Of a stretch of 64,000 nucleotides of DNA, positions 15,602-59,654 are shown in pieces; the stretch's first letter is position 1, and each line of letters begins with the position of its first letter. A program made the translations under genes and the position numbers. Source of the DNA: Fodinibius halophilus. GTDB taxonomy: Bacteria; Bacteroidota; Rhodothermia; Balneolales; Balneolaceae. The notes under the pieces were generated by a model. It did no database searches. It saw nothing but the letters and a program-made list of their open reading frames with translations, and was not told the DNA's origin. The stretch covers positions 1 through 64,000 of the forward strand of contig NZ_JAALLS010000010.1 in the NCBI RefSeq assembly GCF_011059105.1, written 5' to 3'.

Positions 15602-15691
15602 AGTGGTTGGTTTAGGTCGCGATTACACGCGGGTTTGAGTTAAAATTTCTAGTTAGCAATTTCATTCGATATTTCTGTTTTGGAGTATAGT

Positions 15692-15715
15692 ATTCAGAAC
15701 TCAGAATTCAGAATA
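15692..15715. repeat. Degenerate short tandem repeat (TCAGAAT type)
   Basis: A run of the motif ATTCAGAACTCAGAATTCAG with a 7-8-nt period (units TCAGAAC, TCAGAAT, TCAGAAT). The same unit family flanks the four-helix-bundle gene at 17.7-18.1 kb, so this copy marks the left edge of the repeat-rich block inside the paa region. Confidence 0.6.
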
Positions 15716-15825
15716 TTTTTTTAATATCGTTGTGCTCCTGGGACCCACCTCTTGTTCTCCTCCGCCGGAGGAGAGACGCTTTGTTTTATGGCGTTGCCAG
15801 GTTAAAGAACATTTCCCCTCTTGGG

Positions 15826-17159
15826 TGTATAGACCGGGGACATCCTTTACAGGTGTTCCGAGACATCCTTTACACTTTAAAAAGATCAAAAAATAGGCAT
15901 TCTTACCTTCAAAAAGGAGGCCATAATGCCTTGGAAAACCGAGGAAACGAAAATGGAACTGAAAGCCGAATTTGTCCAAATGGCAGATCAACCACAGACC
16001 AATATGAGTAAGCTTTGCCGTCGGTTTGGTATCAGCTGTCCTACCGGCTACAAGTGGCTTCGCCGCTACCAACAGGATGGCTTGGAAGGGCTGTCCGAAC
16101 GTTCCCGTCGGCCCGATAACAACCAAAACAAGACACCTGACCATATCGAGGAGCTGGTCGTGGAGGCTCGTCGTCGGGATCCCGGCTGGGGCGGCCGTAA
16201 ACTGCGCTGTCACCTGTGTAATCAAGCAAGGGCCGGAACGATCGAGGCGGCTCCGGAGCAGATTCCGGCAGCGAGCACGATAACCTCCATCTTGGATCGC
16301 CACGATATGCTCGCCGAACCTTCGGATCCGAGCCGACGAGGAAGCTGGCAGCGCTTCGAGCGGGGCGCCCCCAACGAGCTCTGGCAACTGGATTTTAAGG
16401 GCGAATTTCGCTTGGCCAACCAGCAGTATTGCTATCCGCTCACGTTGGTAGATGACCATTCCCGCTTCAGTCTGGCTGTGGCAGGATGCCCGAACCAGCA
16501 ACGGAGTACGGTTCAAGAACTGCTGATAACGGTCTTCAGGCGCTATGGACTGCCTTGGGCCATGCTCTGCGACAACGGCCCGCCGTGGGGCGCGGGGCTC
16601 GGCTGGCGCGATTGGGGACCGTTCTATACCGGGTTGGCCGTCTGGCTGATGCGGCTTGGCATTGACGTCATCTACAGCCGCCCGAACCACCCGCAGGGCA
16701 AAGGCAAAAACGAGCGGTTTAACCGAACCCGGGGTGATGAGCTGCTTGCCCACCGGCAGTTCGCCGACCACAGCGAGGCCCATGCCCGGATGGCCGACTG
16801 GCGTACCCGCTATAACACAGTCCGCCCCCATCAGCACTTGGATATGAACCCACCGGCCACACGCTACGAATCCAGCGACAGAGCATTTCCAGAGCATCTG
16901 CCGCCGGTTGCCTACGCCAGCGGTGCGACCACTCGAAAAGTAACCACCAACGGCAGGATTCGCTTTCGCGGTCAACGCTTCACGGTGGGAAAAGCCTTCA
17001 GTGGCCACCGGCTTGCGCTCCGTGCTAGTTCGGAGTCTCACACATACGACGTTTATTTTTGCAACCAACAAATTCGAACCATTAATTTAAACAAGAATGC
17101 TAATTAAACGTGTTAACCATGTCCCCGAACAGGTGTAAACCATGTCCCGGAACAGAACA
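15826..17159 (+). mobile_element. IS481-family insertion sequence (1334 bp)
   Basis: The two ends are about 50-bp imperfect inverted repeats, each with two GGGACAT-ssTTTACA-type blocks (left 15826-15875, right 17110-17159, both ends beginning TGT). A 6-bp target duplication CTTGGG lies at 15820-15825 and 17160-17165. The element carries one transposase gene. Its base composition is visibly more GC-rich than the flanking AT-rich DNA, which fits recent arrival. It disrupts copy A of the 102-bp repeat and separates the enoyl-CoA hydratase gene from the DUF559 gene. Confidence 0.9.
15926..17107 (+). CDS. IS481-family transposase (DDE)
   Basis: A 393-residue protein with an N-terminal helix-turn-helix (about 25-60, LCRRFGISCPTGYKWLRRY) and an rve integrase core. 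The catalytic triad is visible as Asp156 (WQLDFKG), Asp216 (CDNGPP) and Glu263 (HPQGKGKNERFNR). A C-terminal beta-rich tail follows. A strong ribosome binding site AAAGGAGG precedes the ATG by 5 bases. The frame is intact and the inverted repeats are present, so the element may be active. Confidence 0.93.
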   Translation: MPWKTEETKMELKAEFVQMADQPQTNMSKLCRRFGISCPTGYKWLRRYQQDGLEGLSERSRRPDNNQNKTPDHIEELVVEARRRDPGWGGRKLRCHLCNQARAGTIEAAPEQIPAASTITSILDRHDMLAEPSDPSRRGSWQRFERGAPNELWQLDFKGEFRLANQQYCYPLTLVDDHSRFSLAVAGCPNQQRSTVQELLITVFRRYGLPWAMLCDNGPPWGAGLGWRDWGPFYTGLAVWLMRLGIDVIYSRPNHPQGKGKNERFNRTRGDELLAHRQFADHSEAHARMADWRTRYNTVRPHQHLDMNPPATRYESSDRAFPEHLPPVAYASGATTRKVTTNGRIRFRGQRFTVGKAFSGHRLALRASSESHTYDVYFCNQQIRTINLNKNAN

Positions 17160-17183
17160 CTTGGGAGGGGAGTAAGGGGTGGG

Positions 17184-17561
17184 TTAGTCATCATATTTTA
17201 AAACCCACTGTTCAATAACACGCAAAACATTATCAATGTCATCAAGCACTTCTTTTTCAGAAAATCGCAAGAAGTGAACACCAAAGGATTCTATTCTCTG
17301 TTGGCGTAGTCGATCTTGCTCATATTGCGAATCATGATATTTCCCGTCTATTTCAATAGCCAGCATTAGCTCTTTACAGTAGAAATCGACGATGTAACGA
17401 TCAATAGGTTTTTGACGGTCAAAATCGAAGCCGTTGACCCGCTTTTCCCGGATATATTTCCAGAGCCTTTTCTCTGCGGGTGTACTATTATTACGAAGTT
17501 TTCGTGCCTTTTCTACCAAATGGTGTTGGTAAGGAATAATATTCAATTTTTTATTGCTCAT
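17184..17561 (-). CDS. DUF559 endonuclease-domain protein
   Basis: A 125-residue protein with the DUF559 pattern: LRNNSTPAEKRLWKYIR near the N-terminus, then DRQKPIDRYIVDFYC, LAIEIDGKYH and a C-terminal VHFLRFSEKEVL. The Asp of VDFYC and the Glu-x-Asp of IEIDG match the restriction-endonuclease-like (Vsr-related) active site, so a nuclease is likely; the biological target is unknown. The gene is boxed by two direct 102-bp repeats. Its start codon is 4 bp from copy B and its stop codon overlaps the last base of copy A. It therefore has no leader or promoter outside the repeats. Confidence 0.85.
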   Translation of the reverse strand: MSNKKLNIIPYQHHLVEKARKLRNNSTPAEKRLWKYIREKRVNGFDFDRQKPIDRYIVDFYCKELMLAIEIDGKYHDSQYEQDRLRQQRIESFGVHFLRFSEKEVLDDIDNVLRVIEQWVLKYDD

Positions 17562-17565
17562 AAGT

Positions 17566-17667
17566 ACCCACCTCTTGTTCTCCTCCGCCGGAGGAGAGAC
17601 GCTTTGGTTTCTGGCATTGCTGGGTTAAAGAATATTTCCCCTCCGGGGAGGGGATTAAGGGGTGGGT
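17566..17667. repeat. 102-bp palindromic repeat, copy B
   Basis: An intact unit with terminal inverted repeats (ACCCACCTCTT and AAGGGGTGGGT), a first hairpin CTCCTCC-GCC-GGAGGAG and a second hairpin CCCCTCC-GG-GGAGGGG. It has the same length as copy A and differs mainly in the middle spacer and second loop. It lies immediately upstream of the DUF559 start codon, so it probably carries that gene's leader. Confidence 0.85.
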
Positions 17668-17717
17668 TTAAGCCCGCCCTTGTTTTATGCTTTATACTGT
17701 TTTAATTGGCAGCATCC

Positions 17718-17760
17718 ATTCTGAGTTCTGACACCTGAACTCAGGATTCAGCATTCACTC
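17718..17760. repeat. Degenerate short repeats left of four-helix-bundle gene
   Basis: Units of CTGAGTT, CTGAACT, CAGGATT and CAGCATT type form a 7-8-nt periodic run. CTGAGTTC and GAACTCAG (17721-17744) can pair as a small hairpin. The run overlaps the 3' end of the four-helix-bundle gene. Confidence 0.6.
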
Positions 17761-18113
17761 AGTATTGCCTTTGAATAAGCATTAATAAGTTTACTGACTT
17801 CTTGCAGCTTATTATTAAAATCTTCTGAGGCTTCAATATATCCAAGATCTTTTGATAAGATGATATAGTACCTACACTCTTCGAGTGATCCTTGGGAGAT
17901 ATTTAAATAACGTGCTGTATCTTTTTTTTCCCGTTTTTTAAATCCCTCCGCAATATTCGCAGCAATAGAAACAGCTGCTCTTCTAAACTGAGAGGTTAAA
18001 CCATACATTTCTGATTTTGGAAAATCTTCAGTTTGGGCATAAACTTCTAACACAAACTCATGTGCTTTTTGCCATACTATTAAATCTTGGAATGTCTTAG
18101 CTGGTCTCCTCAT
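17748..18113 (-). CDS. Four-helix-bundle protein (S23/IVS-encoded family)
   Basis: A 121-residue protein with the family signatures FQDLIVWQKAHEFVLEVY, MYGLTSQFRRAAVSIAANIAEG and a C-terminal helix with SKDLGYIEASE. The family was named from proteins encoded in 23S rRNA intervening sequences and is related to the Avd accessory protein of diversity-generating retroelements, which binds nucleic acid. It is widespread in Bacteroidota without a known function. It sits between paaZ and the DUF559 unit and is flanked on both sides by short degenerate repeats, which suggests a mobile unit (inference). Confidence 0.88.
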   Translation of the reverse strand: MRRPAKTFQDLIVWQKAHEFVLEVYAQTEDFPKSEMYGLTSQFRRAAVSIAANIAEGFKKREKKDTARYLNISQGSLEECRYYIILSKDLGYIEASEDFNNKLQEVSKLINAYSKAILSEC

Positions 18114-18125
18114 AACATCTCCTAT

Positions 18126-18160
18126 AAATTCTGATTTCTGAGTCCAGAATTCTGATGAAT
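18126..18160. repeat. Degenerate short repeats right of four-helix-bundle gene
   Basis: Units TTCTGAT, TTCTGAG, CAGAATT, CTGATGA repeat with a 7-8-nt period just upstream of the four-helix-bundle start codon. They are related to the runs at 15692 and 17718 and largely in the opposite orientation to the left-hand run. Confidence 0.6.
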
Positions 18161-18223
18161 CCTTGCCCCTTACTAGTATGACCAGCTAAAGATTCTATCC
18201 TTACAAGAAGAGCAGTAACTAAC

Positions 18224-56623: not shown

Positions 56624-56698
56624 CGCAGAGGACGACCTAGAGGGGTAAAGTTCCAGACCATCAGGCGATTGATCTCACAGAAATAGGGGGCAATACCA

Positions 56699-56740
56699 TT
56701 TACCAAATAACCAATTAACTAATAACAAATAACCATTACC
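56699..56740. repeat. Degenerate TAACCAA/TAACTAA short repeats
   Basis: Units AATAACCAA, TTAACTAA, TAACAAA and TAACCATT recur with a 7-8-nt period just beyond the paaY stop codon. The same unit family flanks the four-helix-bundle gene on the other side of paaY. Confidence 0.65.
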
Positions 56741-56748
56741 CAACCAAA

Positions 56749-57340: not shown

Positions 57341-57371
57341 GCTTGTTATTAGTTAATGGTTATTGGTTATT
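57341..57371. repeat. GTTATTA-type short repeats, left of second four-helix-bundle gene
   Basis: GTTATTAGTTAATGGTTATT and GGTTATTAGG form a 7-8-nt periodic run in the opposite orientation to the run at 57808-57893, so the gene between is framed by inverted repeat arrays. Confidence 0.7.
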
Positions 57372-57797
57372 AGGCTCCGAACCATATTCAATAGAAGGTT
57401 CCTTGGTAATATGATTTTGCTTGGCCTTCTTCAAATAAGCAATGTATCCATTTAATAATTTGATACAAGTTGTTATTTGGGTACTGATTTTTTCTGTTTC
57501 ATTAGGGGACAAATATTTTTCGTCAATACTACAGCTTATGTGGTCCAAAAGTTCATATAATGATCCTCTGGCTTGTCGGCAGAACTGAATATTTTCCTGG
57601 TAGTGGAACCTGCCATACCCTTCCGCAATATTAGCAGTTACTGATCTTGATGCGCGTAATAGTTGATCTTTGAGTCGGTACTTTTCTTCATCCGGCAACT
57701 TGTTCGCGAGGATAGAGGTTTCTTTTCTAACCTCACGACAATCTTGCCAAACTTTGAGATCCTTAAATGATTGTATCTCTTTTTGGGATGAATCCAT
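57360..57797 (-). CDS. Four-helix-bundle protein (S23/IVS-encoded family)
   Basis: A 145-residue protein with FKDLKVWQDCREVRKET, LKDQLLRASRSVTANIAEGYGRF and CSIDEKYLSPNE, the conserved blocks of the family. Its C-terminal codons are within the left repeat run. It separates paaY from the thiolase gene in an otherwise continuous paa run, and has the same architecture as the gene at 17748 but with different repeat units. Confidence 0.9.
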   Translation of the reverse strand: MDSSQKEIQSFKDLKVWQDCREVRKETSILANKLPDEEKYRLKDQLLRASRSVTANIAEGYGRFHYQENIQFCRQARGSLYELLDHISCSIDEKYLSPNETEKISTQITTCIKLLNGYIAYLKKAKQNHITKEPSIEYGSEPNNQ

Positions 57798-57807
57798 GTT
57801 TACCTAT

Positions 57808-57893
57808 CAACGAATAACAACTAACAAATAACCATTAACCAATAACTAATAACCAATAACAATTAACTATTAACTATTAACTACCAACAAATA
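57808..57893. repeat. TAACTAT/TAACCAA short tandem repeat array, right of four-helix-bundle gene
   Basis: About a dozen degenerate 7-8-nt units (CTAATAAC, CAATAACA, ATTAACT, ATTAACT, ATTAACTA). The array resembles the heptanucleotide STRR repeats of cyanobacteria in style. It fills the space between the thiolase stop and the four-helix-bundle start. Confidence 0.75.
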
Positions 57894-57894
57894 A

Positions 57895-59100
57895 CTAAGC
57901 TTTTTCCAGGATGACAGCCATGCCTTGGCCTACGCCTACGCAGAGTGTACAGAGCGCATAGCGTTGATCCTGCTCGTGCAGCTCAATAGCTGCCGTTTGC
58001 AGCAGTCGTGCCCCTGACATACCCAGCGGATGTCCCAGTGCAATAGCACCGCCGTGTGGATTTACCCGTGGATCATCATCGGCAATACCCAGCTCACGCA
58101 GCACCGCCAGGCTCTGGGCCGCAAAGGCCTCATTCAGTTCAATAACACCCATATCGTTAAGCGACAGGTCGGTGCGGCCGAGCACCTTCTTGGTAGCATC
58201 TACCGGACCCATCCCCATAATACGGGGTTCAACACCCACTACGGCCGAAGCCACAATGCGTGCCATCGGTTCCAGGTCGAAATCCTTAATGGCCGAATCG
58301 CCGGCAATCAGCATAGCACAGGACCCGTCATTGATACCGCTGGCATTACCGGGCGTTACCGAGCCGCCATCACGGAACACCGCAGGCAGCTTGCTAAGGA
58401 CTTCCACCGTAGTGTCCGGACGAATAAACTCATCATTCTCGAAAATTTTGGGATCACTTTTTCTTTGGGGGATCTCCACCGGCATAATCTCTTTGGCCAG
58501 TCGTCCGCTTTCGGTAGCCTGGGCCGCTTTCTGTTGTGATCGGGCCGAAAATTTGTCTTGGTCTTCGCGACTCACGCCAAACTTCTCCACAATATTTTCT
58601 GCTGTCTGGCCCATCGCTTCACTGCCGTACTCTTCATCCATCTTGGGATTCACAAAGCGCCAGCCAAAGGTGGTATCATGCATCTCGTTAGTACCGGAGT
58701 AGGGTGCTGATCCTTTGCCCAGCACCATCGGTCCGCGAGTCATATGCTCCATCCCGCCCGTAATAAAGAGGTCGCCTTCACCTACCTTAATAGACTTATA
58801 GGCCATCACTGCACTGCTCATGCCCGAGGCACAGAGGCGGTTTACGGTTTCGCCGGGTACCGAGGTGGGCAGTCCTGCCAGCAGAGAAGCCATTCGTGCT
58901 ACATTGCGATTATCTTCGCCCGCCTGGTTAGCGCATCCCAAAACAACATCTTCAATGCGTTCGGGATCAATATCAGGATTACGGTTCATAAGCTCCTTGA
59001 TCGGCAGTGCAGCCAGATCGTCGGCACGGATGGGGGAGAGCGATCCGCGGTATTTGCCGATTGGAGTTCGAATGGCGTCAATAATATAAGCTTCAGACAT
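57895..59100 (-). CDS. paaJ: 3-oxoadipyl-CoA thiolase (PaaJ/PcaF)
   Basis: A 401-residue thiolase with nucleophile Cys90 in NRLCASGMS, NPHGGAIALGHPLGMSGARL with the catalytic His, and CTLCVGVGQG with the second Cys. It cleaves 3-oxoadipyl-CoA to succinyl-CoA and acetyl-CoA. The length equals E. coli PaaJ. PcaF of the protocatechuate pathway is equally close, but the paa context favours PaaJ. Confidence 0.93.
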   Translation of the reverse strand: MSEAYIIDAIRTPIGKYRGSLSPIRADDLAALPIKELMNRNPDIDPERIEDVVLGCANQAGEDNRNVARMASLLAGLPTSVPGETVNRLCASGMSSAVMAYKSIKVGEGDLFITGGMEHMTRGPMVLGKGSAPYSGTNEMHDTTFGWRFVNPKMDEEYGSEAMGQTAENIVEKFGVSREDQDKFSARSQQKAAQATESGRLAKEIMPVEIPQRKSDPKIFENDEFIRPDTTVEVLSKLPAVFRDGGSVTPGNASGINDGSCAMLIAGDSAIKDFDLEPMARIVASAVVGVEPRIMGMGPVDATKKVLGRTDLSLNDMGVIELNEAFAAQSLAVLRELGIADDDPRVNPHGGAIALGHPLGMSGARLLQTAAIELHEQDQRYALCTLCVGVGQGMAVILEKA

Positions 59101-59575: not shown

Positions 59576-59582
59576 TGTGCAA

Positions 59583-59649
59583 GATTCAAGTTACAGGATT
59601 CAGGATGCTACATCACGCATCACGTATTACGTATCACGCATTACTTGTC
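59583..59649. repeat. CACGTAT/CACGCAT short repeats
   Basis: Units TCACGCA, TCACGTA, TTACGTA, TCACGCA, TTACTTG, TCACGAA with a 7-8-nt period between paaH and paaI, preceded by AGATTCAAGTTACAGGATTC. Its unit differs from the neighbouring repeat runs. Confidence 0.65.
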
Positions 59650-59654
59650 ACGAA

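Follow-up and report, generated by a model that had tools for sequence, protein, structure and literature searches.

Among the closest described counterparts of the locus presented here are the intervening sequences (IVS) of ribosomal RNA genes. In Coxiella burnetii, the 23S IVS has a length of 428 nt, forms a 28-bp stem, and carries an S23 ORF together with GACAGAT heptamers; RNase III excises it from the transcript (PMC4990558). Mobility of IVS was suspected in older literature, as cited in PMC4990558. A solved relative of the S23 protein, XCC0516 from Xanthomonas (2gsc), is described as a toroidal homopentamer, and a survey of CRISPR-linked genes includes the 23S rRNA IVP (PMC10910872). Short repeats with a period of seven are known as well: the STRR are heptamer repeats of cyanobacteria. 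The RAYT proteins of REP/REPIN systems are transposases with catalytic activity, and a genome is typically served by one type of repeat.

Here, we describe an S23 gene framed by heptamer arrays. It lies in a window of 64,000 nt from Fodinibius halophilus; by window, we mean the whole stretch of DNA that was analysed. The gene and its surroundings comprise the following features:

17748..18113, minus strand: S23 / four-helix-bundle gene (PF05635, TIGR02436), 121 aa, the sole gene of the element
18126..18162, minus strand: 5' arm of degenerate TTCTGAR/TCAGRAN heptamers, upstream of the S23 gene
17716..17762, minus strand: inner part of the 3' arm, TTCTGAR/TCAGRAN motif, partly inverted relative to the 5' arm
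15689..15714, minus strand: "third run", outer part of the 3' arm, adjoining the enoyl-CoA hydratase gene
17184..17561, minus strand: DUF559 gene, a separate palindrome-framed cassette in the 3' arm region, outside the S23 element
15926..17107, plus strand: IS481-type transposase gene, inserted at the DUF559 place, outside the S23 element
18177..18206, minus strand: promoter-like motif TTGTAAGG-N-GTCATACT with a fixed length of 30 nt

In profile searches, the protein of 17748-18113(-) matches PF05635 with E 1.4e-38 and 131.8 bits (cut-off 33.8), and TIGR02436 with 124.6 bits versus a cut-off of 24. The 5' arm is placed between the start codon and the promoter-like motif, and the upstream flank (18127-18156) reads AATTCTGATTTCTGAGTCCAGAATTCTGAT. 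Downstream, the flank at 17718-17762 reads ATTCTGAGTTCTGACACCTGAACTCAGGATTCAGCATTCACTCAG; this inner 3' arm is a small hairpin in itself and covers the last codons of the gene. The array units comprise 7 nt, now and then 8. A lag-7 score of 12 at 17700-17760 was reached by none of 2000 shuffles, the score of 8 at 18114-18175 by 18 of 2000. Between the two flanks, the inverted similarity amounts to 16 (0/2000 shuffles) and the direct similarity to 15 (1/2000), and the term "partly inverted" is thus correct for these arms; each of them is partly palindromic in itself. The preliminary description, which was made from the sequence alone, had claimed a four-helix-bundle gene framed by degenerate 7-8-nt repeats, with TTCTGA/TCAGAAT-like flanks that are partly inverted relative to each other. 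Both claims held, the former by the PF05635 match and the shuffle tests, the latter by the similarity shuffles. The copy has an aldehyde dehydrogenase/MaoC-like gene on one side and an enoyl-CoA hydratase-like gene on the other, and with these protein-gene neighbours it is not inside an rRNA helix. Most likely, it represents a degraded copy of a small mobile element that consists of an S23 gene and inverted heptamer arms.

A third run of repeats had been reported at 15692, and this held, too. The stretch 15689-15714 reads AGTATTCAGAACTCAGAATTCAGAAT, and none of 2000 shuffles reached the lag-7 score of 13 at 15661-15730. In the relative G010, the S23 gene is absent from the window's site, and the gene-less array found there aligns with the third run and the neighbouring CTATACTCC. 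We therefore interpret the 15692 run as the outer part of the downstream arm. Presumably, the 3' arm of the window copy was split later by the DUF559 cassette and the IS481-type element. At the window's site, 17 genomes range from S23 genes of differing subfamily and motif through inverted pairs without S23 to no element at all; among them, no high-identity empty allele was found for this site.

The DUF559 gene is framed by repeats like GGAGGAGAACAAGAGGTGGGT and CCCACCCCTTAATCCCCTCCC (window 17160-17680 and 15745-15830; also L130 and L133), and the cassette was observed at the same site in G005 and G007. The genome has six other DUF559 genes, and by eye, four or five of these have G/C-rich palindromes in their vicinity. 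The cassette could be a second small-gene element of similar style, which is no more than a possibility.

The promoter-like motif, TGTAAGG...GTCTTACT, precedes 31 of 90 S23 genes as well as a few non-S23 genes in the genome, and it measures 30 nt in 30 of the 31 cases. We take it to resemble an ECF-sigma promoter. Because of its fixed length and its occurrence before other genes, it is treated as a promoter that stands outside the mechanism. The reading as a structured 5' leader RNA was dropped, as the 30-nt length is rigid and the motif precedes other genes, too. In 7 loci searched against Rfam, no family reaches the gathering score.

The window contains a second S23 element:

57360..57797, minus strand: S23 gene of the second element
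57804..57898, minus strand: its 5' arm, about 13 units of GTTA-N-T-N (AACNAHT on the plus strand)
57345..57371, minus strand: its 3' arm, inverted

About 600 bp away, beyond a hexapeptide-repeat-like gene, an array at 56694-56742 shows the TAAC motif of this second element. A lone array of CATCACG/CGTATTA and ATTCAGG units is located at 59580-59652 between a thioesterase-like and a 3-hydroxyacyl-CoA dehydrogenase-like gene (names given by eye). It has no S23 gene and is probably a relic or an S23-less unit.

Within the order of the window's organism, 130 PF05635 rows were obtained in 23 of the 28 genomes searched; the window's genome has 15 PF05635 matches. After exclusion of weak, fragmentary and unfetched ones, 90 distinct S23 loci were used, 88 with full flanks. 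The samples contain related genomes, such that counts are not independent, and counting one locus per site corrects for this only partly. The mean lag-7 score is 11.19 for 178 flanks of the 90 loci versus 4.99 for 174 control pieces, with 54% and 6%, respectively, scoring at least 9. At other lags, S23 flanks are near the control save for 14 and 21, and lag 8 is slightly raised. With one locus per site cluster (n=54), arrays occur on both flanks in 28 cases, on one in 13 and on none in 13; the corresponding control numbers are 0, 4 and 50. Overall, neither flank carries an array at the threshold used in 22 of 88 loci of the order. Across 843 kb of the window's genome, there are 12 S23 genes and 21 lag-7 arrays; 9 of the arrays are no more than 400 bp away from an S23 gene and 12 are solitary, without S23 nearby. 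A lag-7 score of at least 9 is reached in 7 of 17 intergenic stretches adjoining S23 versus 21 of 426 others. The association of arrays with S23 is strong, though not exclusive. It had been stated in advance that flanking repeats no commoner than at random intergenic sites would refute the idea; this comparison was run, and arrays are enriched next to S23.

The inverted arrangement is a common property of these loci. A local similarity of at least 16 between the upstream flank and the reverse complement of the downstream flank is found in 69 of 88 loci versus 53 of 523 swapped pairs, and inverted similarity of the arms beats direct similarity in 74 of 88. On the coding strand, upstream arms are G-rich (41/50) and downstream arms C-rich (36/44). 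The best arrays mix fixed and free positions, e.g., GTTA-N-T-N, AAC-N-C-N-N and CAGT-N-A-N. Individually, 5 of 29 arrays show position-specific variability of their units at p<0.05 (7e-6 when Fisher-combined). As this null ignores the shared descent of the units and few arrays are significant on their own, we regard such variability as shown for the best arrays only. The cysD-cysN interval was compared in 21 genomes of the order: some hold an S23 gene, whose subfamily and motif vary between genomes, others an inverted pair without S23, and others nothing.

The heptamers are not confined to this order. A search of public genomes with the window protein gave 294 places, the best 80 of which were kept. 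These relatives have 61-82% identity, belong to many phyla (record titles name Balneolaceae, Bacteroidetes, cyanobacteria, Verrucomicrobia, Acidobacteria, Chloroflexi, Nitrospirae, Deltaproteobacteria, Ignavibacteria and more), and most of them carry the window's motif. Their 156 flanks have a mean lag-7 score of 17.16 versus 3.98 in the control, with 78% versus 3% at threshold. Within 60 nt of the gene, TCAGRA is found upstream in 47 and TYCTGA downstream in 67 of the 80 loci, both in 45, while controls 600 nt off gave 3/73 and 0/77. The typical arms read AGGAGTCAGAATAA-ATG on the 5' side and ATTCTGAATTCTGACTCCTGA on the 3' side, and the 3' array also encodes the last codons of the S23 gene in these copies. 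In phage records, no relative was found.

For pairs of S23 genes at unlinked sites, flank similarity averages 10-11 when the proteins are 10-50% identical, 15.1 at 60-70%, 20.5 at 80-90% and 30.9 above 90%. Paralogues at unlinked sites with a common motif are L072 and L073 of G007, and L007 with L061, L063 and L066; L010 with L083 and L067 with L070 are further examples. The heptamer motif differs between loci and is passed on together with the S23 subfamily, at unlinked sites as well as between phyla.

Filled and empty sites were compared directly. Plasmid C of T. variabilis has 428 bp inserted relative to Fremyella NIES-3275; GTAAT stands at both edges of this insert and only once in the empty allele. 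In Anabaena catenula, the insert comprises 464 bp when compared with a congener whose flanks are 98-99% identical; CATTAAAAGTCA (12 bp) borders this insert on either side and occurs as a single copy in the empty allele. The true duplication in A. catenula is possibly as short as 8, as some of the 12 bases could be array sequence. In both clean comparisons, the flanks are about 98% identical and the empty alleles lack the gene as well as the arrays. The S23 gene and its arms hence insert as one unit, with direct repeats of 5 and 12 bp at these two sites, and the size of a complete element is likely about 430-465 bp. S23 genes at unlinked sites of A. catenula are 97% identical. Inverted ends, a target duplication and empty alleles, the hallmarks of a TIR/TSD transposable element (IS or MITE type), are present for relatives at the two clean sites; the set is incomplete for the window's own site, which has no close empty allele. 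The preliminary description had considered a repeat-linked mobile role plausible, and it is supported by the clean filled and empty alleles and by the motif, which accompanies its S23 subfamily at unlinked sites and in other phyla.

A blind direct-repeat scan at the array edges of 105 loci found no excess at 5-6 nt; at 8 nt or more, there were 6 cases versus 1.5 expected. Given this weak result, either most copies are too old or the duplication claim rests on two sites, and we therefore limit the duplication claim to sites whose empty allele was read. Further sites are filled in some genomes and not in others, with edges that are not clean: on Nostoc plasmids, on the Nostoc chromosome, and between cas10 and cmr3 of Picosynechococcus PCC 7003 versus PCC 7002. 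For the Nostoc chromosomal site, 30 loci were read of 39 genomes with a match: S23 is present in L273, L274 and L289, decayed in L298 and reduced to an array relic in L284; L276 and L286 have other neighbours, the remainder is element-free by eye, and the junctions are unclean. For a second site in Nostoc, 37 genomes gave a match and 29 loci were read, with L318 lacking the anchor; none of these loci is clearly empty, and several heptamer families occur at this one site. The Nostoc intergenic site of L316-L345 holds at least four heptamer families across species, with S23 in either orientation or absent, and is likely a hot spot. Sites of S23 elements also contain hairpins without a gene, remnants of arrays, and decayed genes; the gene-less hairpin of Brasilonema L255 folds with a z of -4.46.

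As RNA, the 428-nt insert of T. variabilis pairs its ends in a 28-bp terminal stem (z -2.74) and holds the gene in the loop. The fold of the window copy is modest (z -1.38; 8 of 100 shuffles fold equally well). An S23 ORF enclosed by complementary arms that form a terminal stem, the defining build of a 23S rRNA IVS, is thus present in the intact T. variabilis copy, whereas the stem is only weak in the decayed window copy.

With respect to orientation, 55 of the 65 cross-phyla loci with both neighbours called are in sense between co-directional genes, 2 are antisense and 8 other. This bias is weaker in the window's order, where 51 of 82 loci are in sense, 16 antisense and 15 other. S23 genes are also found within conjugation operons. 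S23 elements were observed inside CRISPR operons, in cas10-cmr3 and twice in cas6-cas4 (L247 1300-3200, L264, L305), and the cas10-cmr3 interval of sister plasmids has no S23 element.

Implementing these results, we consider a mobile, IVS-like element with heptamer-array arms the likely explanation; direct evidence is lacking both for binding of S23 to the arms and for a role of S23 in mobility. We infer that the S23 protein, a pentamer in the solved relative, would recognise its own arms as RNA or DNA. There are no binding data, and the suggestion is drawn from the covariation of protein and motif. Profile searches matched no catalytic family to the S23 protein, and PADLOC gave none for the two S23 proteins of the window. 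As the protein has no recognised catalytic domain, strand transfer is inferred to be supplied in trans by an enzyme that is unidentified. Sense copies may persist because transcription of the host operon runs through them, and because their hairpin does no harm in the RNA or is processed there; by analogy, such processing would parallel the action of RNase III on rRNA IVS.

Two readings are versions of this explanation with a named mechanism, and both are possible. One assumes mobility at the RNA level, where the hairpin transcript is copied at a nicked target by a reverse transcriptase acting in trans and S23 serves as RNA-binding helper like Avd, a bacterial analogue of SINEs. The strong sense orientation, the RNA hairpin, the different lengths of the direct repeats (5 and 12 bp) at the two clean sites and the remote Avd homology speak in its favour. 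However, selection can also yield a sense bias, only two junctions are clean, and an RVT_1 match is absent in 10 of the 23 S23-bearing genomes of the order, including G014 with 12 S23 rows. Given the genomes without an RVT_1 match, a reverse transcriptase was rejected as a generally required partner. The other version has a DNA transposase act in trans on the inverted arms, e.g., a single-strand HUH enzyme (Y1, RAYT-like) at the hairpins. This is supported by inverted ends and gene-less miniature copies, for which REP/REPIN are the familiar parallel, and by the copy numbers of S23 and Y1_Tnp (Spearman 0.65, 28 genomes, uncorrected for kinship and genome size). Against it, a Y1 match is absent in 10 of 23 S23-bearing genomes, and direct repeats at two sites are contrary to what is expected of HUH enzymes; single-strand transposition of this type is not known to leave a target duplication.

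If the arrays were slippage-prone, STRR-like intergenic repeats, regulatory or without role, S23 genes would merely gather there. Many arrays are without S23, and heptamer repeats are known in cyanobacteria and Beggiatoaceae (PMC4679880), yet the identity of the motif goes with the S23 protein, even between unlinked sites and between phyla, and the two clean empty alleles without gene and arrays contradict the idea for those copies. We regard it as very unlikely. Even less remains for S23 as the Avd of a diversity-generating retroelement, a reading based on remote profile similarity and practically excluded. The scores are 29.8 bits for bAvd (cut-off 40) and 36.6 bits for DivGenRetAVD (cut-off 80); RVT_1 has no match on the window's contig (C2), and the sole match of its genome (G000) is on C10. 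These remote scores, together with the absence of RVT_1 in 10 of 23 S23-bearing genomes, leave this reading unsupported. The kinship to Avd stated in the preliminary description held only partly, being remote and below the Avd cut-offs.

Beyond the mobile IVS-like element, a bolder reading can be formulated. In it, the elements form a separate class of prokaryotic mobile DNA that occurs in many phyla; their ends are degenerate heptamer arrays specific to each subfamily, and a pentameric four-helix-bundle protein without catalytic activity reads these ends; they would spread in sense through operons, probably via hairpin RNA as a SINE-like retroposon, and leave gene-less hairpins and heptamer relics behind; and they would be the common source of rRNA IVS, cyanobacterial heptamer repeats and "CRISPR-linked" IVP genes. 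As one joint claim, we expect this to fail slightly sooner than to hold.

If true, it would account for the very common "four helix bundle protein" genes, for the origin of heptamer repeats in cyanobacteria and Bacteroidota, and for the way intervening sequences got into rRNA genes. The question is open to testing, as fresh insertions, defined arms and one small protein are available. For annotation, caution is advisable: S23 genes in cas or conjugation operons are likelier passengers than parts of these systems, and the IVP entry of the CRISPR survey (PMC10910872) possibly reflects such passenger elements.

In the open-access literature searched, we found no paper in which heptamer arrays are connected with S23 genes outside rRNA, and several known systems are alike in part. 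Avd is a member of the four-helix-bundle family with remote profile similarity; unlike the Avd of diversity-generating retroelements, S23 has no adjacent reverse transcriptase and stays under the Avd cut-offs. REP/REPIN sequences are alike in their small inverted units, gene-less miniatures and one associated gene family (cf. PMC3116915), whereas the S23 gene has no known catalytic domain and each subfamily its own repeat. The TAACTGA/STRR heptamer repeats of cyanobacteria, Beggiatoaceae and Bacteroidetes share the 7-nt period, the intergenic location and the patchy distribution across phyla (PMC4679880). TAACTGA is the reverse complement of TCAGTTA, a unit in the arms of the CAGTNAN S23 subfamily, and GGGGACT arrays occur as inverted pairs without S23 at a site that is occupied by an S23 element in other Nostoc species. 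Passages of PMC4679880 on the TAACTGA repeats describe them without an S23 gene; unlike the repeats described there, the heptamers here are the ends of a gene-carrying element and of its gene-less derivatives. The Coxiella IVS is alike, with an S23 ORF in the loop of a 28-bp terminal inverted stem, a length of 428 nt and heptamers by the ORF. Unlike rRNA IVS, the present copies sit between protein genes, in operons and on plasmids, their arms are degenerate heptamer arrays with a motif that varies by S23 subfamily, and their insertion with direct repeats is seen against empty alleles. From this anatomy, we infer that free-standing elements and rRNA IVS may be of one kind and differ in location.
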